Below are positions 13,314 to 42,367 of a stretch of 47,034 bases of DNA, one piece after another. The notes below the pieces were generated by a model. The model was given only the letters and a program-made list of their open reading frames with translations, was not told where the DNA came from and ran no database searches. The stretch covers positions 1 through 47,034 of IMG/VR virus record IMGVR_UViG_3300009418_000002; one strand, 5' to 3'. The stretch is from a virus. The number at the start of each line of letters is the position of its first letter. The first letter of the stretch is position 1. The position numbers and the translations under genes are program-made.

Positions 13314-13568
13314 TCACTGTGTCAGTCTCCGCGAGATCCACATGCCAAGTATCGCACCGAGACTTGCTCCGACGCCATACGACGCAGCGAACTCCCACGA
13401 CTGATACCCGCTCGATGTGCCAGCGTTTAGCCACCAGACAAAACTAATCAGGAACGCGGTGCATCCGGCATAACCATACTGCCCTCGGCTAATGAACACG
13501 GTCGATGCGCTGACGGGTGCGACTTGCAGACAGCCACGGAGTACCATCTCCAGCACGTCGCCCATCAT
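13314..13568 (-). CDS. small two-helix membrane protein
   Basis: This 84-residue protein starts at the first of two adjacent ATGs, in an ATGA overlap with the methyltransferase gene; AAGGTG lies just upstream, and the second ATG at 13565 has better spacing. Two hydrophobic stretches are visible: GYAGCTAFLISFVWWLNAG and YGVGASLGAILGMWISRRL. Position before the terminase genes gives no clear role. It could be an accessory holin-like or superinfection protein, but that is speculation. Confidence 0.6.
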   Translation of the reverse strand: MMGDVLEMVLRGCLQVAPVSASTVFISRGQYGYAGCTAFLISFVWWLNAGTSSGYQSWEFAASYGVGASLGAILGMWISRRLTQ

Positions 13569-14800
13569 GTCACCTTGGTCGCGGTCTTCCCCGTGAACGC
13601 TTCCCATCGATCAATCGTGACCTGGCAATAGGACGGTTCGATTTCGATGCCGTAGCAATGACGGCTTAGTTGTTCGGCTGCAATAATCGTTGATCCAGAA
13701 CCTAAAAACCCATCGAACACTATGTCATCAGACACACAACTGTTGCGGATAGCTCGACTCATTAAATCATTTGGTTTTGTAGTCGGATGATCGGGACTGG
13801 TTGGTGGACGTGGTATTTCCCACACCGTCGTTTGTGTGCGGTCGTTTATAAAATAATGCGATTTGCCTGACTTCCATCCGTACCATAACGATTCGTGCTG
13901 CCAGTGGTAATCCTGACGACTTAAAACCATTCTGTCTTTAACCCACACAATCATTTGTCGAATTTCGTGTATTGTTTCCAACGCATTCACAACCTGTCGA
14001 TCTCCACCTGACGCACAAACATAAAAACTTCCACCAGACGACAATGGCCATGCTGCAATTGCGCTTTTAAGAAATAAAGCAAACGACTCCGGTGACAGAG
14101 AATCGTTTGGCACAACCAATCCATCTGTGCGTCGTCTGCGCTTTTTTAATTGTTCTATGCTGGCATCATCTTGGTATCCGACGTTATAAGGTGGATCAGT
14201 AAATATCATTTGAGCTTTGTTTCCATTCATTACCAGCGCCACGTCATCGGCGTTCGTGCAGTCACCGCACAGCAACCGGTGGTCGCCAAGCGTAAACAGA
14301 TCACCCGTCTTAATATCCGTAGCGCGTTTCGCTGGCACATCATCAGGATCGGTAAGACCACCATCAGGCTCAGGAGTCTCCAATAGGTCAGCGAGTTCGT
14401 CCTCGTAAAAGAACGGCGACAAGTCCAGCCCATCCTCCGCATCCTTCAGCAACTGGCCAACATCCCACTCAGCTAATTCACCAGTGCGGTTGTCATACAA
14501 CGCCAGGTCGCGCTTCTGAGCCTCTGACAGCCCCGTACGGCGCACCGCGACAAGCTCTGACCCCTTAGCCTCAACCACCTTCAGGTCGGTGATACCAGCC
14601 TCGCCAGCGGCTTCTATGGTCGCGTTCCCTGCCAGCACTTCGTTGTTCTCATCAATGACAATCGAGCGACCGGTGCCGACCTTGTGTAGTGCCTCGACAA
14701 TCATGCCGACATTTCGTGGCGTGTGCTTGCGTCGGTTGTTCGGGTCAGGAACTAAGTCCTTGATATGAGTAAGCGGCTTTGCTCTTTTTTTAGGTGTCAC
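13565..14800 (-). CDS. ParB-like domain fused to DNA (amino) methyltransferase
   Basis: This 411-residue protein starts with GTG. Residues 10-110 form a ParB/Srx-type domain ('IKDLVPDPNNRRKHT', 'VIDENNEVLAGNATIEAA', 'LSEAQKRDLALYDNR'). Residues about 165-405 are a beta-class amino-methyltransferase: 'LLCGDC', catalytic TDPPYNVGYQ (DPPY at 202-205), then the S-adenosylmethionine loop DGFLGSGSTIIAAE near 365-375. It is expected to methylate adenine or N4-cytosine in phage DNA. The fusion is known in phages. Its place just before terminase suggests marking of DNA for packaging or protection from host restriction. Confidence 0.92.
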   Translation of the reverse strand: MTPKKRAKPLTHIKDLVPDPNNRRKHTPRNVGMIVEALHKVGTGRSIVIDENNEVLAGNATIEAAGEAGITDLKVVEAKGSELVAVRRTGLSEAQKRDLALYDNRTGELAEWDVGQLLKDAEDGLDLSPFFYEDELADLLETPEPDGGLTDPDDVPAKRATDIKTGDLFTLGDHRLLCGDCTNADDVALVMNGNKAQMIFTDPPYNVGYQDDASIEQLKKRRRRTDGLVVPNDSLSPESFALFLKSAIAAWPLSSGGSFYVCASGGDRQVVNALETIHEIRQMIVWVKDRMVLSRQDYHWQHESLWYGWKSGKSHYFINDRTQTTVWEIPRPPTSPDHPTTKPNDLMSRAIRNSCVSDDIVFDGFLGSGSTIIAAEQLSRHCYGIEIEPSYCQVTIDRWEAFTGKTATKVT

Positions 14801-15408: not shown

Positions 15409-16641
15409 CTATCCCCTTTTCATATTCATTTCATAGACCTTCTGAACAGCTTGCCCCAGTACGGCTCCCACCCGCACAGCATCCGTGTCGCTCATGGATG
15501 CAATGATATTGCCACATGACCGATGTAACAAGATTCCCGCACGAAATGACAGGGCTAACACCTGGTTAAGCTCGGCGTCTGTAAGTCCAGTAAGACGAAA
15601 GTGAACTGGATACCCTTCCATTAAGCCAGGCGTTCCATTCGCCTCAGCATTGAAGGCTTCGCGTAGAACATGACCTCGTTCCCACATTCGTTCACTAATC
15701 GACTCCGTGCGATATCGTGTGATGACTTCCTTGGCGGCTGATAGTCCAAGCAACGACCCGCCAAACGTGCTACTGATCAGTTGAGCTTCTTCCATGACAT
15801 CTCGCGTCCCACAGATAGCGGCAATCGGGACACCGTTGCCAAGAGCTTTCCCAAAGCACGCAATGTCAGGAATCGTGTCGCTCTTGCACCAGAGTTGTTG
15901 ACTGCCACCGAGCGCATGACGGAAACCGAAAATCATTTCGTCGAAGATTAACAGTGCCCCATGCTTGTCAGCGAGTCGTCGAGCTTCGGTGTAGAACCGT
16001 CGTTGTGAATGCTGCGTGATATCCAGTGAGTCGGCAACAGGAAAACGATACGGCTCGATCACAATCGCTGCCACCGCATTAGGTAAGGGGTCATCGAGTG
16101 AGTCCAATACTCTTGCAAGGTCGGCGTGGTCGTTATCACGGAACGTCGTGATGTGATCGTTGACCTTGCTGTAGTATTCTGTCGCGTTCTTGGGATCGGC
16201 ATAGCGATGTGGAGCTTGACACCATTCATGCCAGCCATGATACGAATGTTGAGCCACTACCACTGTGCTTTGACCTGTAACGGCACGCGCAATCTGCACG
16301 GCTCCCTGCATGGCTTCGCTGCCAGTCATGACGAACCGCGTCATCTCTGCACACGGAATAACTTCTGACAACCTGGTGGCGACTTCATTCTCAAGGCGAT
16401 GGGGCAATGACAGAATTGACCCCATCGTCAGGGCATCACTCACGGCCTTCGTGACTCCCACATCCCCATAGCCCAGTGAAATCGCGCCAAGTCCTGCGAC
16501 TAAATCAATCACCTTGGACTCGTCAGAACACACGACACGACACCCTGACCCCGACTCGGCATAGCAAGGATAGACGTCGGTTGGCCCAACGGCACCAAAG
16601 GCTTTCGACCGTGTTTGCGAATCGCCTGGTGTGTGCAACAT
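15409..16641 (-). CDS. PLP aminotransferase of the HemL/class III type
   Basis: This 410-residue protein is a pyridoxal-phosphate enzyme of the glutamate-1-semialdehyde aminomutase group: 'VTGSEAMQGAVQIARAVTGQSTVVVAQHSYHGWHEW', 'AAIVIEPYR', 'GALLIFDEMIFGFRHALGG', and the PLP lysine in ACFGKALGNGVPIAAICG. In this cassette it is more likely an aminotransferase for a sugar intermediate than a tetrapyrrole enzyme. It is often paired with SpsF-like cytidylyltransferases in surface-sugar loci. It starts directly after the TAG of 16642-17337, with GGGGCG upstream. Confidence 0.85.
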   Translation of the reverse strand: MLHTPGDSQTRSKAFGAVGPTDVYPCYAESGSGCRVVCSDESKVIDLVAGLGAISLGYGDVGVTKAVSDALTMGSILSLPHRLENEVATRLSEVIPCAEMTRFVMTGSEAMQGAVQIARAVTGQSTVVVAQHSYHGWHEWCQAPHRYADPKNATEYYSKVNDHITTFRDNDHADLARVLDSLDDPLPNAVAAIVIEPYRFPVADSLDITQHSQRRFYTEARRLADKHGALLIFDEMIFGFRHALGGSQQLWCKSDTIPDIACFGKALGNGVPIAAICGTRDVMEEAQLISSTFGGSLLGLSAAKEVITRYRTESISERMWERGHVLREAFNAEANGTPGLMEGYPVHFRLTGLTDAELNQVLALSFRAGILLHRSCGNIIASMSDTDAVRVGAVLGQAVQKVYEMNMKRG

Positions 16642-17337
16642 CTACGACGCCCCTTTCAACATCCCGCAGAGGCGTGCCCCCTCAAGGACGTTCTGTGCCG
16701 AGTAGTCGTGAGGCACGAGATATCCACACACCTGTCGAACTCGGTCAAGGTCTTTTTGTCGATCCACGCTGAGCTTCAGATAGCCATAGTCGTGTTCGGA
16801 TAATACGTCATGAGTTTTATAGTTCGAGCGAATCCACGGCGTAACGTGTTCACGGTCATGGCGAGCATTCGCACGTTGAGCCGCCTCATGTAAGACTTTG
16901 GCTGACATGACTTCCGTATCAAACCCATCCGGCCATCGCGCTTGACGGCCGACATTAGACACATAGTCATAGGTCGATTTCAGGTATTCGTCCAAAACGT
17001 ATGACGACACATCTGAGGCCAGCAACGGACAATCACCAGTGATACGCATCACCACATCGGCCTTCATAAATCGTGCAGCATGATCCATGCGTCCCAACAC
17101 ATCCCACTCCGACCCACGATAGACACAGATACCACTCGATGGACGCTCAAATACTGCCGCCAACCGATCATCATGTCCGTTGACACTGGTAACAAGACAG
17201 ATTCCGGTGAGTCCTTCTATGCGAGAGACACGAGTTATGACGTGCTGAATCATGGACTGACCAGCAATTTGAGAGAGCGATTTTCCCGGCAATCGCTTCG
17301 ACCCCATACGAGCCTGAATCAGCGCGACAACTTTCAA
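16642..17337 (-). CDS. SpsF/NeuA-like cytidylyltransferase
   Basis: This 231-residue protein begins KVVALIQARMGSKRLPGKSLSQIAGQSMIQHVITR, the nucleotide-binding signature of CMP-sugar synthetases and SpsF. It also has 'IRITGDCPLLASDV'-type sequence (MRITGDCPLLASDVSSYVLDEY) for substrate and metal. It would activate a nonulosonic acid or similar sugar with CTP. The start is a TTG in a TTGA overlap with the upstream gene; no internal ATG would keep the signature. The neighbours are the synthase and acetyltransferases. Confidence 0.85.
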   Translation of the reverse strand: MKVVALIQARMGSKRLPGKSLSQIAGQSMIQHVITRVSRIEGLTGICLVTSVNGHDDRLAAVFERPSSGICVYRGSEWDVLGRMDHAARFMKADVVMRITGDCPLLASDVSSYVLDEYLKSTYDYVSNVGRQARWPDGFDTEVMSAKVLHEAAQRANARHDREHVTPWIRSNYKTHDVLSEHDYGYLKLSVDRQKDLDRVRQVCGYLVPHDYSAQNVLEGARLCGMLKGAS

Positions 17338-18365
17338 TGGACCACTCTCTCGACAGCACGTGCCTGACAGGAGTGAATCGGTTGAAGAAAATCCTCACCC
17401 CCAAAGCCGCGACGGAAGAACTCGATATTGGATTCCTTTTCGGTGACGCTGCCTCCCTGATGACCCATCTCGTAATACTTCACACCGAGTTCCTTTAAGC
17501 GTTTGATGATGGCCCACTGAATTGGATGTGACACGTTCGGTGCAAGACTCGCAGCACTGGCATAGTAGGCATAGTCTTTCCATCGCAACACATACGCAAA
17601 TCCAAGAACGCTCTCGCCTTCTCTTGCCACAAACCACGACGCATGGTCAGCCAGCACGAAGCTATCCTGACAGACCCATGAATCGGACGGGCGCGTCACC
17701 CGACCGGAGGCGCGGTGGTGTAAGTCTTGGCACAGTTCCCTGGTGTGATCGTGCCGTTCCTCAGTGACCGTGATTGCCGAGTCTCGAATGATGTGCCTGT
17801 AGCTTTTTCTCACGTCAGCCCATAACCTAGTCAGGGGGATAGATAGATCGATAATACGTGTCCTGATGGAGTCTTCCTGCCAGCCGTTGTCTAATACCAA
17901 TGCTGAATACATCGGTGGATTGCACCACATTCCTTTAAGCATGTCATCAGGAACAAAGTGTGGATGAATCGGCATTATGCGAAAACCGACACGACTATCA
18001 GCGTGACTCACTACCGACTCCAACACTTCACACATGATCGGCAACACGACATCCATCGCAAACCGTTCGTCTGGATGATCCACCAACGCTTCATGCAACA
18101 GCAATGGGGCAGGGGCAGGAAGGTCGCCAAGCCCAAACAGGTTAAGCTCTGGATGATAGGTGAGAAGTTGTGCGGCCACGACTCTCCCGTCTACCGTCAC
18201 GCCCCATGAATGATCGACGAGTGTCGGGTTCCGTGCTATCTCATAATCCCGCCAGAGCGGTCGATTCCAGAACCAGAGGGCGTCTTTTTTGATGACAAGC
18301 TCGTCAACTTGTTCTGTGATCTTTACACCTGACACCGGAACCACTTGGATTCGTGTGTCTTTCAT
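17334..18365 (-). CDS. FemAB/GNAT-like acyltransferase
   Basis: This protein has 343 residues from the ATG at 18365 (ATGA overlap with 18362-18889). The N-terminal half has 'NRPLWRDYEIARNPTLVDHSWGVTVDGRVVAAQLL', as in GNAT-type domains, and the second half has 'ADVRKSYRHIIRDS', 'SWFVAREGESVLGFAYVL', 'YYASAASLAP' and 'KRLKELGVKYYEMGHQGG', as in FemAB-type acyltransferases. It is likely to add an acyl or aminoacyl group to an amino sugar. The substrate is unknown. Confidence 0.75.
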   Translation of the reverse strand: MKDTRIQVVPVSGVKITEQVDELVIKKDALWFWNRPLWRDYEIARNPTLVDHSWGVTVDGRVVAAQLLTYHPELNLFGLGDLPAPAPLLLHEALVDHPDERFAMDVVLPIMCEVLESVVSHADSRVGFRIMPIHPHFVPDDMLKGMWCNPPMYSALVLDNGWQEDSIRTRIIDLSIPLTRLWADVRKSYRHIIRDSAITVTEERHDHTRELCQDLHHRASGRVTRPSDSWVCQDSFVLADHASWFVAREGESVLGFAYVLRWKDYAYYASAASLAPNVSHPIQWAIIKRLKELGVKYYEMGHQGGSVTEKESNIEFFRRGFGGEDFLQPIHSCQARAVERVVH

Positions 18366-18889
18366 AACCGATAGTCCAGTGTCCAGATGTCTCCGCGTTG
18401 ACGACTCACCCAAAAGCCGCACGACCGAAACGCGCACAGCGATGGCTCGTTGTGTCGCTTGACGACTGCTTCAAGAGTTGGTACGCCGAGATCCTTGGCC
18501 TTGCGACAGACGGCACGAAGCATTGGTGTGGCATACCCACATCCTCGGTGAATCGGCGCGACAGTAATCGACACCCGACCATGACGCAGCAGATGGCGAT
18601 TCGGTGAATGCGAGTCATCCTGCACAGAAGGTCGCAAGTCGAGGGCAACGGTTCCAAGATCATCCCACTGAGTATGAGCAATAAACGACGGCGTGAGCGG
18701 GTCTTCCATCATGCTGTGGAGCCACTCCAGATGGTCATCGAACTCAATCGGATCTGAGGAAAGCGAGTTTCGTCGTGTCTGTGGATCGTTGGCCCATCGA
18801 TACAGCAGGGGTGCGTCATCTGCCGTGACCTTTCTCAGCCCAACCACGGGATCTGAACCCTGGTGATCCCTGGTATTACCTGGTCTCAT
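18362..18889 (-). CDS. GNAT N-acetyltransferase (PseH-like)
   Basis: This 175-residue GNAT protein has 'GLRKVTADDAPLLYRWANDPQTRRNSLSSDPIEFDDHLEWL', 'VSITVAPIHRGCGYATPMLRAVCRKA' with the acetyl-CoA loop (RGCGYA), and 'LEAVVKRHNEPSLCAFRSCGF'. The order and the 'W.ND......S...I....H..WL' start are those of PseH and related amino-sugar N-acetyltransferases. It is overlapped on both sides by ATGA. It probably acetylates a 4-amino sugar before the synthase step. Confidence 0.85.
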   Translation of the reverse strand: MRPGNTRDHQGSDPVVGLRKVTADDAPLLYRWANDPQTRRNSLSSDPIEFDDHLEWLHSMMEDPLTPSFIAHTQWDDLGTVALDLRPSVQDDSHSPNRHLLRHGRVSITVAPIHRGCGYATPMLRAVCRKAKDLGVPTLEAVVKRHNEPSLCAFRSCGFWVSRQRGDIWTLDYRL

Positions 18890-19734
18890 ACTCCGACGCG
18901 AAACTGCGCCATCTCCGCTTCTTCGTCCACCTGTTGCTTGTCAGAAGTTCCCATCGCCAGTTCAGCGACCTCCACGTTCAGGACATAGCTCTGTAGCTGG
19001 TCAGGAGTCATGGCGTGTGCATAGTCTGGATTCTTCGGGTCGGTGTCAGGCACTCTGAAATGTGCCTCAAGAATCTCAGCACCCGCACAGACCGCAAGTG
19101 CGCCAGAGGTCACGTAGTTGGGAGCCGTATGATCTGAGAATCCACTAAACGCCAAGGCTTCACGCTTGTTGTCGCCCTTCGACGGAGCCAGGAACGAGCG
19201 ACGCAATACCTTCAAATTTAGCGACCCGTAAGAAGCCGGATACGCACTGACGCAATGCAACAGCTTGAGTTCGTCGGCGGTATAACTGAACGCGAAGTCC
19301 AGATCATTGATACTGGTCATGCCTGTGCTGACGATCATGGGCTTCATACATGCAGACATTGCGTCCCGCAACTCTGCATCCTGGCACTCAAATGACGAAA
19401 TCTTAAACATCGAGACATGCGGGGCGATGACCTCGACATCCTCTGGCAAATAGACGGTGCAAAGATAATCGACCCCTCGTTGCTTGGCGATAAGAGCAAG
19501 TTGTTCATGCCACTCGGCTGGCCATTGAAGGAGATTCTTATAGTGGGCCGCGAACGGAGTCTTCGTCGCGTGGCGGCGTTTCGCCATTTTCCTGGCTGAG
19601 CTTGTCCATTGAAACTTCACCGCACTTGCGCCAACAGAAGCCGCGACCGTGATGAGATGTTCCATCTTTGAAAGGGACGCATCCCCGCAGGATCCAGCTT
19701 CAGCGATGAGGGTCGTTTTGATATTGTTGGGCAT
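18886..19734 (-). CDS. NeuB/PseI-family nonulosonate synthase
   Basis: This 282-residue TIM-barrel protein has 'LIAEAGSCGDASLSKMEHLITVAASVGASAVKFQ', 'CTVYLPEDVEVIAP', 'FKISSFECQDAELRDAM', 'MIVSTGMTSINDLDFAF', 'LLHCVSAYPASYGSLNL', 'GFSDHTAPNYVTSGALAVCAGAEILEAHFRVP'. These are the NeuB/PseI/LegI marks, including the metal and phosphoenolpyruvate residues. It condenses phosphoenolpyruvate with an amino sugar. The usual C-terminal SAF (antifreeze-like) domain of about 60 residues is absent. It overlaps the Gfo/Idh/MocA gene by about 35 bases. Confidence 0.92.
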   Translation of the reverse strand: MPNNIKTTLIAEAGSCGDASLSKMEHLITVAASVGASAVKFQWTSSARKMAKRRHATKTPFAAHYKNLLQWPAEWHEQLALIAKQRGVDYLCTVYLPEDVEVIAPHVSMFKISSFECQDAELRDAMSACMKPMIVSTGMTSINDLDFAFSYTADELKLLHCVSAYPASYGSLNLKVLRRSFLAPSKGDNKREALAFSGFSDHTAPNYVTSGALAVCAGAEILEAHFRVPDTDPKNPDYAHAMTPDQLQSYVLNVEVAELAMGTSDKQQVDEEAEMAQFRVGV

Positions 19735-20563
19735 CGTGAATCATCTCCACGACAAGCGCACCATCTGTGATAGTGGCTGCCGTTGTTGAAGGTTTCCGAA
19801 GTGTCAGAGCTTGCATGAAGTCCTTGAGTTCGTCTTTATACATCGGTGCAATCGCTGACGGTGGATGTCGCAAATTATAATTAGTCTTCGTCTGGTCGTC
19901 CCATGCGACAGTCAGGGTTCGACATTCCTCTCGTGGATGGCTGACATATTTCAACTCACAATCAATTTCCAAGTCTTCTTTCTTTTTGCGTGGCGCGGTA
20001 AGACCAATCCATGCCGAGGTCGGTTCCACCTGTGCGAAGTTGACGCGAGTCGCCCCAAAGAAGTGGCAAGCAAGATCAAGTTCATGACTGGCTTCATAAA
20101 TGACATCCCCATACGTCGAAGCGAATCCCGGCCAGAGACTTCGACACGAATAGCATGTCAGCTTGACATGGGTCGCTCTGGTTCCTTTTTTAAGCGTGGC
20201 ACACATCTCGCTCATGGCACGAATTATCGTGCGATTAAACCGCCAGCAGTAGCCGACCTGCGTGATACGTCCCACGCTCATCTCTACCAGGGAGGTCGCC
20301 TCGTCAAGCGATGAACATAACGGCTTCTCGATAAAGACTCCCGCCTCGGTCTGTTCAAGTGCATCTTTTGCGATGTCGTAGTGGGTTGAGAATGGTGTGC
20401 AGATCAGAATCCCATCAGGCTGACGAGACAATGCGTCCTCAAGTGGAGGCGAATCTGAGACTCGTGGGTCAACAATTTCGATGTCATCTTGGACACCGAG
20501 AGCGAGGGCGTTCCGATGATGACGCTTGCCAATGGAACCGAATCCAATAATGAGCAGTCGCAT
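19700..20563 (-). CDS. Gfo/Idh/MocA-family sugar oxidoreductase
   Basis: This 287-residue protein begins RLLIIGFGSIGKRHHRNALALG, the NAD(P)-binding Rossmann loop, followed by 'ILICTPFSTHYDIAKDAL' and 'VFIEKPLCSSLDEA' (EKP motif), and 'YEASHELDLACHFFG' with the substrate-domain histidine. It would oxidise or reduce a sugar hydroxyl in the cassette. It is shorter than usual (330 or more). AGGGA precedes the ATG, which follows the TGA of 20564-21562 directly. Confidence 0.88.
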   Translation of the reverse strand: MRLLIIGFGSIGKRHHRNALALGVQDDIEIVDPRVSDSPPLEDALSRQPDGILICTPFSTHYDIAKDALEQTEAGVFIEKPLCSSLDEATSLVEMSVGRITQVGYCWRFNRTIIRAMSEMCATLKKGTRATHVKLTCYSCRSLWPGFASTYGDVIYEASHELDLACHFFGATRVNFAQVEPTSAWIGLTAPRKKKEDLEIDCELKYVSHPREECRTLTVAWDDQTKTNYNLRHPPSAIAPMYKDELKDFMQALTLRKPSTTAATITDGALVVEMIHDAQQYQNDPHR

Positions 20564-21562
20564 TCAATATCCCTGCTCGTCTGCTGATGCGATAAGTGAC
20601 CGTAGCTGGGCGTCATTCATGAGCCTATCCGGTGCGTTGCTGGTGTATCGGTAGGTGGAAGGCACGGCTTTTCCTGCCCAGGCATCCTGCGTCCACGTTG
20701 GGCCAGATGGCGGGACAATGTAGAGGTCACACGACGAATCATAGAGTGTGCGGGTTACTTCCTCAGTCGAGAGCAAGACCTCATGCACCTTCTCGCCACC
20801 AGCCCGAATTCCAATAACAGACGCATTGAGTTCTCTGAAGTTCCCTGTCTGCCTAACGACTGTTCGCATCAAGTCATGCACGGATGCCGACTTGAGTGAC
20901 GGCACGAAGATTTCGCCACCCACTTGACGATCTATCGCTTTCCAGACCAGTTCAACGGCCGCCGATAACGGCATCCAGAACCGTGTCATCTCGGTGTCGG
21001 TAATCTGTAGCCGCTCACCTCGCTGTTGCTGCTTGCGCCAGAGTTGCAAGACCGACCCGCGTGAGCCAAGCACGTTGCCGTAGCGCACGACAGACGCACG
21101 GAACGTCTCAGGGTGATAGGCATTGGAGCCAATCACGAAACCCTCAGCACTGGCCTTGGTTTTGCCATATTGGTTCATCGCCTCAACCGCTTTATCTGAA
21201 CTGATGAAGACCAACTGCTTGACCCCACAGGCAAGACAGGCATTGACGACGTTCATTGTGCCGATGACATTCGTCTTAATCAGTTCGCCGCCATCGGTGT
21301 GGGCGTTGACCCGTTTCAATGCCGCCGCATGAACCACCACGTCCGTGCCATAGAACGCCTGACACAGCCGATGATAGTCACGCACGTCCCCCAGGTAGGC
21401 GCGGAACTGGTGATAGGTTTTGAACTGGTCGCCAATCTGGTCAGCTTTCACCTCATCGCGTGACAAGGAAATCAGTCGCGTCACTTCTGGATGATGCTCT
21501 TGACAGTGCCCGATGAAGGCTCGACCAAAACTGCCCGTCCCGCCTGTGACCAGTATCTTCAT
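20564..21562 (-). CDS. PseB/CapD-like UDP-sugar 4,6-dehydratase
   Basis: This protein has 332 residues from the ATG at 21562, which overlaps the preceding small gene by ATGA; a longer frame is an unlikely start. The NAD-binding MKILVTGGTGSFGRAFI, 'DVVVHAAALKRVNAHTDGGELIKTNVIGTMNVV', the active site 'VFISSDKAVEAMNQYGKTK' and 'RYGNVLGSRGSVLQLW' match short-chain dehydrogenase type dehydratases such as PseB (UDP-GlcNAc inverting dehydratase). It makes the 4-keto-6-deoxy intermediate that starts pseudaminic or legionaminic-type pathways. Confidence 0.9.
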   Translation of the reverse strand: MKILVTGGTGSFGRAFIGHCQEHHPEVTRLISLSRDEVKADQIGDQFKTYHQFRAYLGDVRDYHRLCQAFYGTDVVVHAAALKRVNAHTDGGELIKTNVIGTMNVVNACLACGVKQLVFISSDKAVEAMNQYGKTKASAEGFVIGSNAYHPETFRASVVRYGNVLGSRGSVLQLWRKQQQRGERLQITDTEMTRFWMPLSAAVELVWKAIDRQVGGEIFVPSLKSASVHDLMRTVVRQTGNFRELNASVIGIRAGGEKVHEVLLSTEEVTRTLYDSSCDLYIVPPSGPTWTQDAWAGKAVPSTYRYTSNAPDRLMNDAQLRSLIASADEQGY

Positions 21563-21783
21563 GTGCCTCGGCTCATTCGGTTGATGTACCGATGATCGAC
21601 ATTGATCCGACACTTCACTCGCATCCGTTCGTGGGCCGGAAGCGACCAGAACCACATCTTCTCCTCGATGACATATCGTAAACGAGGATAGATTCTGAGA
21701 GCCATCCCACACACGCCAAGACCAGTCAACCAGATGAGATGGTTACACCACGAACGAGCGGTCGCAAAATGGGCAGGTGACAT
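21559..21783 (-). CDS. small protein with one membrane segment
   Basis: This 74-residue protein overlaps its upstream neighbour by about 40 bases and the dehydratase gene by ATGA. Residues 14-29 (CNHLIWLTGLGVCGMALRIY) form one hydrophobic stretch, and the C-terminal half is basic (KCRINVDHRYINR). No family is recognised. Its tight coupling to the sugar cassette suggests a link, which is inference. Confidence 0.5.
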   Translation of the reverse strand: MSPAHFATARSWCNHLIWLTGLGVCGMALRIYPRLRYVIEEKMWFWSLPAHERMRVKCRINVDHRYINRMSRGT

Positions 21784-23695: not shown

Positions 23696-24238
23696 CTATC
23701 CCTCCTTGGTGAGCGCATCAGAGATGGTGCGCCCAAATAATGTTCCCTGAATAACACCAACTTCAACGGGAAGATTCATTGGACAAACGCTTGACAGTCT
23801 CGTTATTTCCCATTTGCGCTTGTCGCACAAGGGATGATTGTCCTGTCGATTACGAGTGTTGTTATTCCATGGCTTGCCTTTGATCGTGCCGACCAGACAC
23901 CAACCAGAGGCATTTAAGGTAATTCCAGGTTCACTGGCAAGTGTGTAAGTAATCAAACGGTGATAGCCCATAGACTTAGCGGCTTTCCATGCGGCTCCAT
24001 ACAGTTTCGATGGCGCATTCTTAGTCCCATCGGTGCAGCATCTCGTAACCTCCAAGGTTAGTCCATCATCAGAGGCACGAGTCACGGGTCGTCCAACCAT
24101 AATCACGCCGACAACCTTAATGCCATCATTAACAGCGATGCCCCACTTCCACCCCTGTGGAGGCACATGGTGTCGATGATGGGTCTGAACAAACCGACAG
24201 GCATCCTTGTAGGTTAGAGGCTGGAGAAAGAGAGTCAC
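23696..24238 (-). CDS. XF1762/Mom-like GNAT-fold protein
   Basis: This 180-residue protein starts with GTG, with GGAGGG just upstream. The motif run 'YKDACRFVQTHHRHHVPPQGWKWGIAV', 'VVGVIMVGRPVTRASDDGLTLEVTRCCTDGTKNAPSKLYGAAWKAAKSMGYHRLITYTLASEPGITLNASGW' is the XF1762-type phage family, which resembles the Mu Mom DNA-modification protein. Mom changes adenine in DNA; whether XF1762 proteins do so is unsettled. The gene lies between the initiator and nuclease genes. Confidence 0.85.
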   Translation of the reverse strand: MTLFLQPLTYKDACRFVQTHHRHHVPPQGWKWGIAVNDGIKVVGVIMVGRPVTRASDDGLTLEVTRCCTDGTKNAPSKLYGAAWKAAKSMGYHRLITYTLASEPGITLNASGWCLVGTIKGKPWNNNTRNRQDNHPLCDKRKWEITRLSSVCPMNLPVEVGVIQGTLFGRTISDALTKEG

Positions 24239-32965: not shown

Positions 32966-33874
32966 TCATGTATGGCAATAGCCACTGCATTCGTTGTCAA
33001 ACAAATCCATCTGGTCGGTGTCGTCGTATGCGTCTTCGATTGGCACACCTGACTGATGCAGATACGGGTCACCACGCAGCAAAGCAATTCCCTTCGTGGC
33101 CATGACACGCTGGTCTTTCTCGGTAGCACTCCCGTCATCGATACGGGCTTTTGTGGCAAGGTATTCATCCCTCGTAATCTTTGGAATCTCCCGCAAGCTG
33201 CGGTCAAAGACAACCGCTTGGGCAAATTCTTCCGGTCTATGCTTCCGCATCTCGGCAAAATACCGTGACGAATGAAAGGGGCATCCAATGCAACTGCTTT
33301 TCACGGGTTCTCGCCCAATCACCTCTGTCACATACCGCTTGCAATCCTGCCTGTTGAAGCCAATTTCAATAAGGGGCCATCGTATGGTTTCCCAATGTTC
33401 GGTCGATGGCTTCATTCGACTGGCTTCGTCGGTAGAGATTCCAATCCATGTTTCGACATGATGTTTCCATCGTTGGTGAGGTTTATATCCGAGCAAACGC
33501 CGGACCTCTTTGACAATCGGTTGAATCTTGTATTCAGACGTACATTGCCGCCGCACGAATCCTTGTGAGCCGTCTTGGTTTTTAATATGAAGGGGCATCA
33601 TCGATGCGCCACGGGGAGAACGAATCGATCCGGCTGTTACTGTTCTGACCTCCACACCGTGTTCCTTTGCCCACACCTTCATATCTGACAAATGACGCAT
33701 CACGGCCGGTGGTTCCCATTGGGTGTCAGCGAAGATGGCAACGTCAGGTTTTTCAATGCTTGGAAATTCGTCACGACACGCAGCAATGAGAAGCGCCGTA
33801 GATTGCACCCCTGCACCAAAAGACAGCGTTCGATAATCGGGCGTTCTTTGATTGAGTTGCTGTGTTTTTGACAC
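32966..33874 (-). CDS. PAPS reductase/PP-loop-like protein
   Basis: This 302-residue protein has the PP-loop 'YRTLSFGAGVQSTALLIAACRDE' (SFGxGxxS at about 18-25), then 'AIFADTQWEP', 'TEHWETIRWPLIEIGF' and 'SSCIGCPFHSSRYFAEMRKHRPEEF' with the CxxC pair used by some PAPS-reductase-like and DndC-type enzymes. Such phage proteins bind ATP and may form sulfur-containing or adenylated groups. The substrate is not clear; the sulfur-related role is inference. Confidence 0.8.
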   Translation of the reverse strand: MSKTQQLNQRTPDYRTLSFGAGVQSTALLIAACRDEFPSIEKPDVAIFADTQWEPPAVMRHLSDMKVWAKEHGVEVRTVTAGSIRSPRGASMMPLHIKNQDGSQGFVRRQCTSEYKIQPIVKEVRRLLGYKPHQRWKHHVETWIGISTDEASRMKPSTEHWETIRWPLIEIGFNRQDCKRYVTEVIGREPVKSSCIGCPFHSSRYFAEMRKHRPEEFAQAVVFDRSLREIPKITRDEYLATKARIDDGSATEKDQRVMATKGIALLRGDPYLHQSGVPIEDAYDDTDQMDLFDNECSGYCHT

Positions 33875-34240: not shown

Positions 34241-34574
34241 CAATAGGTTCCTCCAATGCCTTCTCAAGCGCGGCCGTTAAGGTTGCGATCTTGTCCTGCT
34301 TGTCCTTGTCAGCATGTGAACCAACCTGCGTCGAAGCCTTGACGATTGGCATCTTTGGCTCAGGCAGACCAAACAGAAATCCGGGGCCGTTCCCTTCTTG
34401 ATCCATCGAGACCTCCACGTTCCACGTCTCGCCCGTGGTTGGCGAGACCATCTTCAAAACCGGCCACACTTCGCCATCTTCCTCTTTCAGTTGAACGGCT
34501 TTGACCTTGCAGTTGACGAGTTGGGCGTAATACCCGCGAAGCCATGTTCGGTGTCTGAGTTCGTCTGTGTTCAT
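34233..34574 (-). CDS. hypothetical early protein
   Basis: This 113-residue protein has an ATG with AAGGAGAATG and, just upstream, the repeated hairpin 34587-34605. 'LVNCKVKAVQLKEEDGEVWPVLKM' and 'TGETWNVEVSMDQEGNGPGFLFG' form a beta-rich body, and the end is helical. The family is not recognised. Confidence 0.6.
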   Translation of the reverse strand: MNTDELRHRTWLRGYYAQLVNCKVKAVQLKEEDGEVWPVLKMVSPTTGETWNVEVSMDQEGNGPGFLFGLPEPKMPIVKASTQVGSHADKDKQDKIATLTAALEKALEEPIDE

Positions 34575-34586
34575 AACATTCTCCTT

Positions 34587-34605
34587 GGCGACTCGTTGGT
34601 CGCTG
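34587..34605 (-). repeat. repeated hairpin before a ribosome site, copy 1
   Basis: The plus-strand 19-mer GGCGACTCGTTGGTCGCTG occurs here and at 35219-35237. On the minus strand it reads as a GCGAC-CAACGA-GTCGC stem-loop placed directly before AAGGAGA of the next gene. It could set RNA stability or translation of the following gene. Confidence 0.6.
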
Positions 34606-34815
34606 CTAGCGTGGGCTATAGGTTTCGTAGATGTCGTTGATATCTTGTGGGGACTTGGCGACTGGCGTGCCTTCGGTCACATCAAACTTCAACCCTTTGA
34701 TGACGTTATCGAGTTGGCGTTTATATGCAGCCTGAGTGAACTTGAACACCCAACCGTCAACCGTGACATATCGACCATCGCTGATGGCTCGTGACATTCC
34801 GTAGTTGGCTTTCAT
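34606..34815 (-). CDS. small hypothetical protein
   Basis: This protein has 69 residues from the ATG at 34815 in a TAATG overlap. 'ISDGRYVTVDGWVFKFTQAAYKRQLDNVIKGLKFDV' contains a beta hairpin and a helix. The family is unknown. Its frame and overlap with the previous gene support it. Confidence 0.55.
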   Translation of the reverse strand: MKANYGMSRAISDGRYVTVDGWVFKFTQAAYKRQLDNVIKGLKFDVTEGTPVAKSPQDINDIYETYSPR

Positions 34816-35028: not shown

Positions 35029-35205
35029 TTAGTTGGCCTCCGCATCAGTAAGCCTGTAAGTGAGCGTCTTCCGTACGTTGGTGCGGTTGTTCTCGTAAAT
35101 GGTGAGCGGTTCAGGATCGTCTGCACTGACGGTCGGCATCATCGCCCGAATCATCGCTTCGTCCTGTCTCAGTTTTGCTGCGACGTGTCGTAGTTGGTAA
35201 TACAT
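35029..35205 (-). CDS. small early protein
   Basis: This protein has 58 residues from the ATG at 35205, with AGGAGAGCAG, and preceded by the repeated hairpin 35219-35237. The sequence MYYQLRHVAAKLRQDEAMIR is helical, then 'EPLTIYENNRTNVRKTLTYRL' forms strands. No family is recognised. Confidence 0.6.
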   Translation of the reverse strand: MYYQLRHVAAKLRQDEAMIRAMMPTVSADDPEPLTIYENNRTNVRKTLTYRLTDAEAN

Positions 35206-35218
35206 GCTGCTCTCCTTT

Positions 35219-35237
35219 GGCGACTCGTTGGTCGCTG
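35219..35237 (-). repeat. repeated hairpin before a ribosome site, copy 2
   Basis: This is an exact 19-base copy of 34587-34605. It again lies directly before the AAAGGAGAG of the following gene (ATG at 35205). Confidence 0.6.
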
Positions 35238-35248
35238 GTTGCACCTGG

Positions 35249-35422
35249 TTATATAGTGTCCTTCGCCTTCCTGAGCTTCTCTTCCCGAAACTGATCTGCA
35301 CGTTTACTGAACGCCTCAAAAGATTCGCCATCGCGTGGTTTCGGAGTCATTGGACAATCATGAACATTCCAATCATCGCGGGACATCACTTTGCGGCATT
35401 GTTTGCACCTTACTGAATACAT
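35249..35422 (-). CDS. small zinc-finger-like protein, first gene after the structured leader
   Basis: This 57-residue protein begins MYSVRCKQCRKVMSRDDWNV, then HDCPMTPKPR, then a helical part ending RKAKDTI. CxxC at 6-9 and HxC at 21-23 suggest a zinc finger. The start is an ATG with AAGGAGAGTG, 17 bases after the closing helix of the noncoding stretch. It is the first gene of the early operon. The frame overlaps no other good frame. Confidence 0.7.
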   Translation of the reverse strand: MYSVRCKQCRKVMSRDDWNVHDCPMTPKPRDGESFEAFSKRADQFREEKLRKAKDTI

Positions 35423-35452
35423 AATGACACTCTCCTTGAGTAAGTAAAGTTT

Positions 35453-35483
35453 GATGTGTTGTTCTTTCAGGATGTTCGTATGT
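35453..35483. repeat. 31-bp imperfect inverted repeat, left arm
   Basis: Pairs with 35581-35611; 27 of 31 positions match. As minus-strand RNA the four differences become three G-U pairs and one C-A mismatch. As plus-strand RNA they become one G-U pair and three mismatches. The loop is 97 bases. Confidence 0.9.
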
Positions 35484-35580
35484 CGTATGCCAAGAGGGTC
35501 GCACCTGAGATATTTATTAGGGCCTCGGCACGATACATAGTGATCGTCCTAGCCTCACACACGTTACCTTTGACTGCTTA

Positions 35581-35611
35581 ACACACGAACACCCTAAGAG
35601 AACAACACATC
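35581..35611. repeat. 31-bp imperfect inverted repeat, right arm
   Basis: Pairs with 35453-35483 (see that entry). On the minus strand it begins GATGTGTTGTTCT, shared exactly with the plus strand of the left arm. The same TGTTCT core is also part of the boxA-like site at 36070-36063. Confidence 0.9.
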
Positions 35612-36051
35612 CAATGAAGACTCACCAGTACCGGAACTCTGCATCCGGCACCGGTGAGGTGACGCTAGCCTCAACTGAATCGGCGATACGTGGTGTCAAC
35701 GTCCACGACATCGTAATCTTCAAATATGGTGGATGCGAGGCTTCTCAGCAAGTTTGCCACACTTGCCTCGGTGACACTCGCGACCGCAAAGTTTCAAGAT
35801 ATTCGTTTCGCTCTCTGGCGGCGACTGGCGTGCGTCTCATCTCAGCGAGAATGAACCTTTCGGCGACGTGATCACGCTCTTGGGTGTTTTAGTTGCTTGA
35901 ACATCTCACGAACTTTGTACTGATCACTTCTAAGAGCTTGCTACTCTTCGCAACCCCTAGCGCGTCCTCTGTGGCTGTCTTGGCGTCGTGGCTATTAAGC
36001 TCGGCTCGGCTCCTGGCGTTGTGCGCTACGGACGTTTGTAGCTGACCAGCT

Positions 36052-36066
36052 ATTTAATTTTCAAAG
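36052..36066 (-). promoter_or_regulatory. boxA-like 15-mer with following hairpin, near main promoter
   Basis: The minus strand reads TGTTCTTTGAAAATTAAAT; the last 15 bases also occur at 25189-25175. TAGCT-GGTC-AGCTA follows as a small hairpin (36052-36039). TGTTCTTT is close to the boxA core of rRNA and phage nut sites. It lies about 15-30 bases after the predicted start site. It may load Nus factors so that polymerase can cross the whole genome. This is inference. Confidence 0.5.
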
Positions 36067-36090
36067 AACACATTACTTACTTACATATAG

Positions 36091-36119
36091 ATAATACACT
36101 AATTATACATATTACACAA
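36091..36119 (-). promoter_or_regulatory. sigma70-type promoter for the leftward operon and noncoding RNA
   Basis: On the minus strand the -35 is TTGTGT (36119-36114), the spacer is exactly 17 bases, and the -10 is TATTAT (36096-36091). The expected start is near 36084, which is just where the 5' strand of the closing helix begins. The surrounding bases are AT-rich. This is the best promoter in the window by eye. Confidence 0.6.
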
Positions 36120-36143
36120 GTTACCTCTCGCTTAGCTCCATGA

Positions 36144-36154
36144 TTCACGGTGAA
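36144..36154. promoter_or_regulatory. TTCACGGTGAA dyad and phased A-tracts between divergent genes
   Basis: The perfect dyad TTCAC-G-GTGAA lies 25 bases upstream of the -35 of the leftward promoter and about 70 bases upstream of the plus-strand gene. A-tracts at 36153-36157, 36164-36167 and 36176-36179 are spaced at near one helical turn, which would bend the DNA. It may be an operator or part of the control of the divergent genes. Confidence 0.35.
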
Positions 36155-36223
36155 AAACACACGAAAACATTAAGGAAAACGCACGTCCAAAAAAGATTTG
36201 AACTCATTTGTGGTACGCTGTGA

Positions 36224-36520
36224 ATGTCGATGGGAATCAAGTCAAAATTCGCACGATGGGCTATCGGTCAAGGCGTGTCTGACTACCTCAAAAAGATGGG
36301 CGTCGATAAGCCGCATCGACAGCGAGTTGTGAAGGCGGTGCAAGATATGTTGAACCCGAAGAAAGAACCTGTGATGCTTGGCGGTGTGGTATCAGTCGCC
36401 GTCGCACTCGGCGCGGCGTTCGGACTTGACTTAACGGTCGAACAACTATCCGTCACAGTGGCAACGGTCATTGCCATCGTGACGTTCGTCCAACGGAAAT
36501 TCGTCTCCCCTAAACACTAG
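36224..36520 (+). CDS. holin-like membrane protein
   Basis: This 98-residue protein has a basic N-terminal part ('MSMGIKSKFARWAIGQGVSDYLKKMGVDKPHRQRVVKAV'), then one or two hydrophobic helices 'VMLGGVVSVAVALGAAFGLDLTVEQLSVTVATVIAIVTFVQRKFV'. The two membrane parts with a short polar turn fit small holins. It lies beside the lysozyme gene but on the opposite strand. No good Shine-Dalgarno sequence is seen; the Met at codon 3 is a possible start. Holin assignment is by context. Confidence 0.6.
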   Translation: MSMGIKSKFARWAIGQGVSDYLKKMGVDKPHRQRVVKAVQDMLNPKKEPVMLGGVVSVAVALGAAFGLDLTVEQLSVTVATVIAIVTFVQRKFVSPKH

Positions 36521-40611: not shown

Positions 40612-40790
40612 TTTCTCGTCCATTCGAGAAGCGTCTGAATTAACACCACACCAGCCAGGGTTCCGGCTTCGCCGTCGAGCCGGAGGTCGTAATTCGTAGC
40701 GGTGAGCAGTTGTAACGTAAGCAATACACCGCAAACAGCGAACACCCTCGCCAGCTTCCACACCGGATGAGTCGGATCTGAGAACGACAT
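40608..40790 (-). CDS. small membrane protein in tail region
   Basis: This 60-residue protein has 'KLARVFAVCGVLLTLQLLTATN' and 'GEAGTLAGVVLIQTLLEWTRK', probably two hydrophobic helices. It starts at the stop of the 40790-42367 gene (TGATG) and ends by ATGA in the next gene. It could be a second holin-like or superinfection protein. Confidence 0.55.
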   Translation of the reverse strand: MSFSDPTHPVWKLARVFAVCGVLLTLQLLTATNYDLRLDGEAGTLAGVVLIQTLLEWTRK

Positions 40791-42367
40791 CAGGCAAATC
40801 CTAAAGTCGTCGTCAGGCCCATTTCACTCGCCCCAACTTGGTTAAGAATCCAGAAGTTCTGCTGTTCGGCTGGAGATAAGACCCATGACACTTTGATGAT
40901 ACCGCCAGCTTCAACGCGAAACTGGCATCCATTGATAAAATAGCCAACTTCACCTGCGCCAACAGTTTCCACGAGGCCAGTCATCGACTCCGCAAGGGTA
41001 ATCTTGTCTCCCGGTTCCCGCGCAAGAGCTTGGGTCATTAGATATGTCGAGGCGTTCCCGACGATGGACATCTTCTTGATGACATAGCGAGGGTCTTTGT
41101 AACTATTCAGAATCCACTCGGCGATATTAGAAGCAAACTCTCCAGCGTTGCTTTCGTACTTCATGTCGATGCGACTGTCGATTTCTCCGTAACTTGTCGC
41201 TGAAGATGAATCGGATGCCGCCATGACCGTTTCGCTGACATCAGCAATTTCTGTTCCACGAACCTGAAGCGTCGTGAGGTACGCTGTGACTGCTCCATTG
41301 TTGACAATCTGAAAGGTGACAGCGTTCGCGGCGGTAGTAGCCAGCGTCACAGCCACATCGCCCGTGATAACGGACCCTGAGCCGTCTGAGGCGGTATTGG
41401 CAATCCAATCGGTTCCTGCAACAGGCGTAACGATTGACGAACCAGCTACGCGATAACTCTTGATTGAAGCTTCACGGAACAGGGCTGTTATTTGAATAGT
41501 GACACCAGCCGCGACTTCTGGAACGCTATCGGTTGTCGTCAGTTCATACAGCACACTCGCTGAACCTGCTGTTGTCCGAGGATGCACCACCACGTACACG
41601 CGATTGATAATATCGGCCCGTGAACGGCTGACCGACAGATCGACCATCGTTTCATCAAAGCTCCCAACGGCGGCTCCGAACTTCGGACGGGCATGACGAT
41701 CTTCAAATCTGAGAACCCCGCCCGTTGTGCCACCTTTAACGTAGAGGTAGCCAAGCTCGCTGAGGGTAACGTCAGCCAAGGCACTCAGAACAGGTGTCTG
41801 AGTATCGTTCATGTTGTCGAGAGCAATCACAAAAGTAGATTGGCCTGTGCTGTAGGATGTGGCGGCTGGTTGCCTGGTGACGGAGTTCGTCACAACAGTG
41901 GTAATAATCTCGTCGCTTCGCTTGTTGCTTTGAATACCGATGCCCCGAATCCGAGTTCTCGCGGCTTCGTCTATCCAATCCACAGCCGTGCAAATCACGG
42001 CTCGACGCTGATATTGTCCGGCGTCTGGAAAGACACTGATAAGGGTTCCCACGCCTTTGTAGTAATCCGTTCCTCCATACGTGAACTTTGCTCGAACGCC
42101 GATACCAATGTCCCATCCAGCCCGAGCATTCGTGTGGCCGGGAGTGTAATATCCGGCCTGTCCTCCGCTGTTTGATGAACTATTGTTCATAGCCCATGTC
42201 ATGGTTCCCGTTTGAGCTACACGGTCGAGTGGGCCTGAGCCGCCTATGCCATACGTGATTTCGAGAGGTTGCACATCAATGCGCGTGTCAGCCGTGACAT
42301 CTGTCCATCCTCCTCCAGCACCAGCGAGTTCAACCTGCATCACGACGGTCGCGGTAATCGTAGGCAT
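40790..42367 (-). CDS. tail-tip/hub-like protein
   Basis: This 525-residue protein follows the tape measure gene, where distal tail and hub proteins are encoded. It is beta-rich: 'DVTADTRIDVQPLEITYGIGGSGPLDRVAQTGTMTWAMNN', 'KFTYGGTDYYKGVGTLISVFPDAG', 'FEDRHARPKFGAAVGSFDETMVDLSVSRSRADIINRVYVVVHP', 'YVIKKMSIVGNASTYLMTQALAREPGDKITLAESMTG'. These recall hub/distal tail domains of siphophages. The assignment rests on order and style. Confidence 0.65.
   Translation of the reverse strand: MPTITATVVMQVELAGAGGGWTDVTADTRIDVQPLEITYGIGGSGPLDRVAQTGTMTWAMNNSSSNSGGQAGYYTPGHTNARAGWDIGIGVRAKFTYGGTDYYKGVGTLISVFPDAGQYQRRAVICTAVDWIDEAARTRIRGIGIQSNKRSDEIITTVVTNSVTRQPAATSYSTGQSTFVIALDNMNDTQTPVLSALADVTLSELGYLYVKGGTTGGVLRFEDRHARPKFGAAVGSFDETMVDLSVSRSRADIINRVYVVVHPRTTAGSASVLYELTTTDSVPEVAAGVTIQITALFREASIKSYRVAGSSIVTPVAGTDWIANTASDGSGSVITGDVAVTLATTAANAVTFQIVNNGAVTAYLTTLQVRGTEIADVSETVMAASDSSSATSYGEIDSRIDMKYESNAGEFASNIAEWILNSYKDPRYVIKKMSIVGNASTYLMTQALAREPGDKITLAESMTGLVETVGAGEVGYFINGCQFRVEAGGIIKVSWVLSPAEQQNFWILNQVGASEMGLTTTLGFA

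Follow-up and report, generated by a model that had tools for sequence, protein, structure and literature searches.

A conserved long stem ahead of a phage gene block, a candidate RNase III-type processing site with an exchangeable insert

What does a long inverted repeat do in a non-coding stretch of a phage genome, and on which strand, if either, does it work as RNA? We analyzed a 47,034-nt stretch of viral DNA (hereafter the window) in which the preliminary description had reported two 31-nt arms, 35453–35483 and 35581–35611, that differ at four places. The coordinates and the differences were as claimed, and so was the pairing asymmetry: minus-strand RNA forms 27 Watson-Crick pairs, 3 G-U pairs, and 1 C·A mismatch, whereas plus-strand RNA forms 27 Watson-Crick pairs, 1 G-U pair, and 3 mismatches. 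On minus-strand RNA, 35581–35611 is the 5′ arm and 35453–35483 the 3′ arm, as assigned from the arm comparison and the relatives, and the stem closes a 97-nt structured insert (35484–35580, minus strand).

With 30 of 31 positions paired on minus-strand RNA, this is the best 31-position stem in the window (arm span ≤400 nt). Across 60 dinucleotide-shuffled versions of the 47-kb sequence, the best stem reached 27/31 when G-U pairs were allowed and 23/31 when only Watson-Crick pairs were counted (versus 27/31 for the observed stem). The 31-bp stem is real and far above chance, and no second copy of the element was found within the 47-kb window. Folding both strands of 35450–35614, as had been proposed, gave a minimum free energy of −70.8 kcal/mol for the minus strand versus −57.4 for the plus strand (z-scores of −7.8 and −5.7, respectively). 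The raw energy of such a tile is not diagnostic and by itself is unexceptional: several of the 1172 165-nt tiles on the minus strand reach −70 to −76 kcal/mol.

The window is a tailed-phage genome, with portal, HK97-type capsid family, tape measure, and endolysin genes and a weak terminase match. Two records, G001 and G002, continue through its end into its start, so the genome is circularly permuted; G001 is identical to the window across the stem region. The minus strand holds nearly all the long plausible genes. The stem lies inside a non-coding stretch of ∼650 nt, and no minus-strand ORF of 60 aa was found between 36223 and 35423. A gap of 31 nt separates it from the start codon that opens a leftward (minus-strand) gene block, whose first ORF (57 aa, 35249–35422, minus strand) has an AAGGAG Shine-Dalgarno sequence between the stem and the start. 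A holin-like gene, oriented rightward from 36224, lies on the other side of the leader. A sigma-70 scan of the window locus returned no promoter, and we infer minus-strand transcription mainly from context. Three related contigs terminate in or right beside the locus (at window positions 35413 and 36220, and at the end of L026), which perhaps reflects population variation or a strong stem disturbing assembly.

Other features of the genome were noted along the way. A small hairpin, GCGACCAACGAGTCGCC, stands directly before the Shine-Dalgarno sequence of two genes (34574–34610 and 35205–35242, minus strand), and a variant of it occurs at a third gene, before 32141. Minus-strand genes at 15409–21712 match NeuB, a class-III aminotransferase, a Gfo/Idh oxidoreductase, and a polysaccharide-biosynthesis dehydratase, and thus point to a nonulosonic (sialic-type) acid cassette in the phage. 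A DNA methylase (13565–14800), a Mom-like DNA modification protein (23696–24238), and a PAPS-reductase-like protein (32966–33874), all on the minus strand, suggest that the phage DNA may be modified.

We searched viral contigs for relatives of the stem and found two true homologues besides G001, namely L026 and L028. In L026, the 159-bp element (stem plus insert) is 94% identical to that of the window, a higher identity than in any of the other aligned blocks of >100 bp (67–88%). An upstream module is 86% identical over 249 columns. The stretch between this module and the element and the stretch beyond the stem cannot be aligned with the window, and the homology ends at the arm ends; after the stem, L026 has no convincing gene before the contig end. 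The L028 arms match those of the window at 22/31 and 27/31 positions at fixed register. Between these kept arms the insert is larger and entirely different, consisting of a 106-aa ORF with a ribosome site and no match to a transposase or other family. Upstream, L028 shares a core with the window leader (nhmmer E = 2.6e-6).

The preliminary description had proposed to look for compensatory changes in related phages; pairing survives two-sided substitution at pairs 19, 27, and 31. Pairs 16 and 28 shift between G-U and Watson-Crick by one-sided changes that keep minus-strand pairing. Pair 1 also changed on one side; its minus-strand pairing is kept in L026 and broken in L028 at fixed register. 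Pair 20 is G·U in all three genomes, and pair 14 is C·A in all three on the minus strand (G·U if plus). L026 has a second site, pair 30, that is A·C on the minus strand and pairs, as G·U, only on the plus strand. The counts of Watson-Crick pairs, G-U pairs, and mismatches are 27/3/1 (window), 26/3/2 (L026), and 24/1/6 (L028) on minus-strand RNA and 27/1/3, 26/2/3, and 24/4/3 on plus-strand RNA, a comparison of three homologous stems only, two of them close relatives. Five of the six minus-strand mismatches in L028 fall at the outer end of the stem, where a 460-nt fold pairs GAUG with CAUC beyond a small internal loop. Overall, neither L026 nor L028 keeps the DNA repeat while breaking the minus-strand pairing.

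Do the arms then reveal the transcribed strand, as the preliminary description had argued from their G-U pairs? This argument is borne out only weakly: a 3:1 split of four transitions has P = 0.31, and G-U counts from one hairpin (3 versus 1) cannot identify the transcribed strand. Neither the L028 arms nor the conserved C·A, which would be G·U on the plus strand, fits it. Arm duplex energies are split, being stronger on the minus strand in two of three genomes (minus/plus: window, −45.7/−36.9; L026, −40.6/−37.1) and slightly stronger on the plus strand in L028 (−41.8/−44.1). RNAalifold of the stem element in the window and L026, a pair of sequences with no two-sided change, gave −60.2 for the minus and −49.5 for the plus strand. 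Minus-strand pairing is preserved across the relatives, yet the arms by themselves leave the strand unproven. The minus-strand RNA reading is nevertheless the better one because of the location in an untranslated minus-strand leader, the consensus energies, and the pairs kept in relatives.

We then considered the RNA ahead of the stem. Immediately upstream lies a 15-bp hairpin (35621–35658, minus strand) that looks terminator-like by simple scan; no counterpart was found in L026. Farther upstream is the untranslated leader (35728–36054, minus strand), with modules conserved in L026 (35728–35966 at 86%, 36022–36054 at 94%) and a core recognizable in L028. At its head, 36058–36070 (minus strand) is an exact match to TGTTCTTTGAAAA, a boxA-like sequence. 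At up to one mismatch, 0.11 occurrences of this motif are expected, a figure to be read with the motif having been picked after inspecting the sequence. Near-matches stand at the same relative place in L028 and in a distant phage, L030, and the motif is degenerate in L026. An excerpt of one source gives the E. coli-type boxA consensus as GYTCTTTAANA (PMC5725501). The boxA pattern was found in none of four unrelated bacterial genomes scanned; the Vibrio 16S leader carries its own boxA form, AGCTCTTTAACAA.

The upstream leader shows no strong folding excess over shuffles in the window (z = −1.6) or L030 (−0.5) and some in L028 (−3.0, from 20 shuffles only). RNAalifold of the leader module in the window and L026 gave −85.4 on the minus versus −70.5 on the plus strand, again with no two-sided change. 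Outside the boxA-like motif and the stem, and thus flanking the whole leader, 36070–36081 and 35439–35450 are complementary at 11 of 12 bases. We dropped the rRNA-like closing helix that these could form, because no matching complement was seen in L026; the complementarity is probably due to chance.

The distant phage L030 (51.9 kb) encodes a protein 59% identical to that of the window gene 40790–42367, and its first block gene is related to the window gene 34606–34815 (38% over 53 aa). The corresponding L030 junction carries an 8-bp hairpin followed by a two-part hairpin in which C·A separates 13 bp from 4 bp; each of the next three gene junctions likewise has a two-part hairpin. The four junction hairpins have z-scores of −6.4, −5.8, −4.9, and −5.1, and each beats all 200 shuffles. 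These four successive junctions (L030:17625–18828) look as expected for a series of RNA processing sites. The L030 leader begins with TGTTCTTTTAAAACCAAATAGCTC, close to TGTTCTTTGAAAATTAAATAGCTG of the window; kinship of the L030 hairpin at the corresponding junction with the window stem is no more than suggestive, as the two cannot be aligned outside the motif. Several L030 ribosome sites are also preceded by a recurring hairpin (CGCC..GGCG), comparable to the small GCGACCAACGAGTCGCC hairpin of the window.

Directly observed are the stem itself, where it lies, how sharply it is bounded, and that two relatives retain it despite insert differences. What they mean is a closer call: we give about even chances to an RNase III-type processing or stability stem that ends a structured, possibly boxA-led, untranslated leader. 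The leftward transcript would carry this leader, ending 3′ in a self-contained RNA hairpin domain. RNase III would cut the two-part stem and release the insert; leader RNA and mRNA would thereby come apart, and the mRNA would begin at a defined 5′ end. The enzyme would be the host's, since no RNase III domain was found in any of the four phage records searched, two of them short fragments. The fixed C·A mismatch may tune the cut, by analogy with the internal loop of T7 R1.1.

Several results favor the processing reading: the location in non-coding DNA, at 31 nt from a minus-strand start codon that AAGGAG precedes; an L026 homology that stops at the arms and makes the 159-bp element the most conserved block; and L028 arms that keep the mismatch around a different insert, with pairs changed yet kept. 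The L030 hairpins, arranged as T7-type processing sites ahead of genes of which the first is homologous to a window block gene, favor it too. It is weakened by the mixed strand signal in the arms, by an arm sequence identity higher than RNase III would need, and by the window having one long stem and a 15-bp hairpin, not a series.

Could the arms instead act as DNA? They could terminate a small insertion, or they could border a cassette that phages exchange and whose cargo varies between the same arms. The homology indeed ends at the arms, the cargo of the window and L026 is wholly different from that of L028, and the L028 arms pair slightly better on the plus strand. The two-sided changes fit either reading; the preference of the preliminary description for an RNA stem stands as the better reading, mostly on grounds other than those it gave. 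However, the repeat sits at the same place in all three genomes, has no visible target-site duplication at its arms, and keeps the G·U at pair 20 throughout; the L028 ORF has no transposase match. Further copies, the mark of a miniature inverted-repeat element, were found neither in the window nor in phage or plasmid records: blast of 35420–36240 against 50,697 phage records returned short chance matches only, and the stem had no match in 72,556 plasmid records. We consider a DNA-level repeat unlikely. A stem that is left uncut and shields the mRNA from 5′ decay, or controls the first ribosome site, would fit the 31-nt distance to the start codon and the small hairpins that directly precede ribosome sites of other block genes, but it would leave unexplained both the conserved mismatch and the translated-looking ORF inside the L028 stem; we hold it to be distinctly unlikely.

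Highly improbable, in our judgment, is that the stem is the last domain of a large structured trans-acting RNA, in kind like GOLLD or ROOL, which are also large structured non-coding RNAs of phages. The ∼650 non-coding nt, the modules conserved in L026 and partly in L028, and the boxA-like head speak for this. Against it, shuffled sequences fold almost as well as the upstream leader outside L028, the stem domain is small, the window has no tRNA, and no Rfam model, GOLLD and ROOL included, matched the window at the gathering threshold; at E up to 10, Rfam gave noise only over 35300–36300.

Among the hits of pattern scans of viral contigs, true homologues were limited to L026, L028, and the kin of the window. 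Of 21 stretches with CCCTAATAAATATCTC, those homologous were the window's kin and L026 only; of 5 with CTGAAAGAACAACACAT, L054 and L055 resemble coding sequence matched by chance; GTTCAYTCTCN{2,8}GAGATGARAC hit 4 viral stretches (L059 by chance) and 7 in genome_contigs, all by chance. With protein query A2, L028 and L030 were the only relatives among viral contigs, and genome_contigs yielded none. G003 (L006/L017), G004, and G005 had no match to the stem region. The element was not described in the literature searched on boxA with phage or non-coding RNA, boxA sequence, GOLLD/ROOL, T7/RNase III sites, and start-associated sequences.

How does the proposed processing stem compare with known systems? 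T7 R1.1 is described as an intergenic hairpin with an internal loop, and both strands are cut if it is made fully complementary (PMC8708148, PMC6121014). The stem shares the gene-junction position and the two helices with an unpaired interruption (C·A in 3/3 stems). A series of sites between block genes is seen at the four successive L030 junctions and not in the window. The stem is also much longer (30/31 pairs), has a 97-nt or ORF-bearing insert, and has a single mismatch in place of the 4/5-nt internal loop of R1.1, and its cutting is only predicted. Cluster K mycobacteriophages have, shortly before genes, imperfect inverted repeats with a variable spacer (ESAS; PMC3203893, in part). The likeness to ours is evident, but theirs recur at many genes with departures that, in the part of that source consulted, do not support RNA pairing; our stem is single copy in the window, without repeated 17-bp inverted repeats and start-associated sequences, and its departures mostly keep pairing.

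In rRNA operons, boxA stands at the transcript head, and an RNase III site lies in the long helix that follows, according to an excerpt of PMC10250234. By analogy, the locus would have a boxA-like head, non-coding RNA, and a long helix within one transcript, but its helix closes a separate downstream domain and not the leader, and there is no rRNA. An rRNA-operon-like phage leader, in which boxA-headed untranslated RNA precedes a processing stem with the conserved C·A and in which this stem acts as an interchangeable holder, from which host RNase III frees a small structured RNA in some phages and a gene in others, is an idea we regard as decidedly doubtful. The long stem, the fixed mismatch, and the exchangeable insert are new; in other respects the element is a variation on known kinds. 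Should the stem prove to be a processing site, related phages would use one closed stem to enclose a structured RNA or a gene, and a boxA-like signal would head a long phage untranslated RNA, a setting in which rRNA-type antitermination would make sense.
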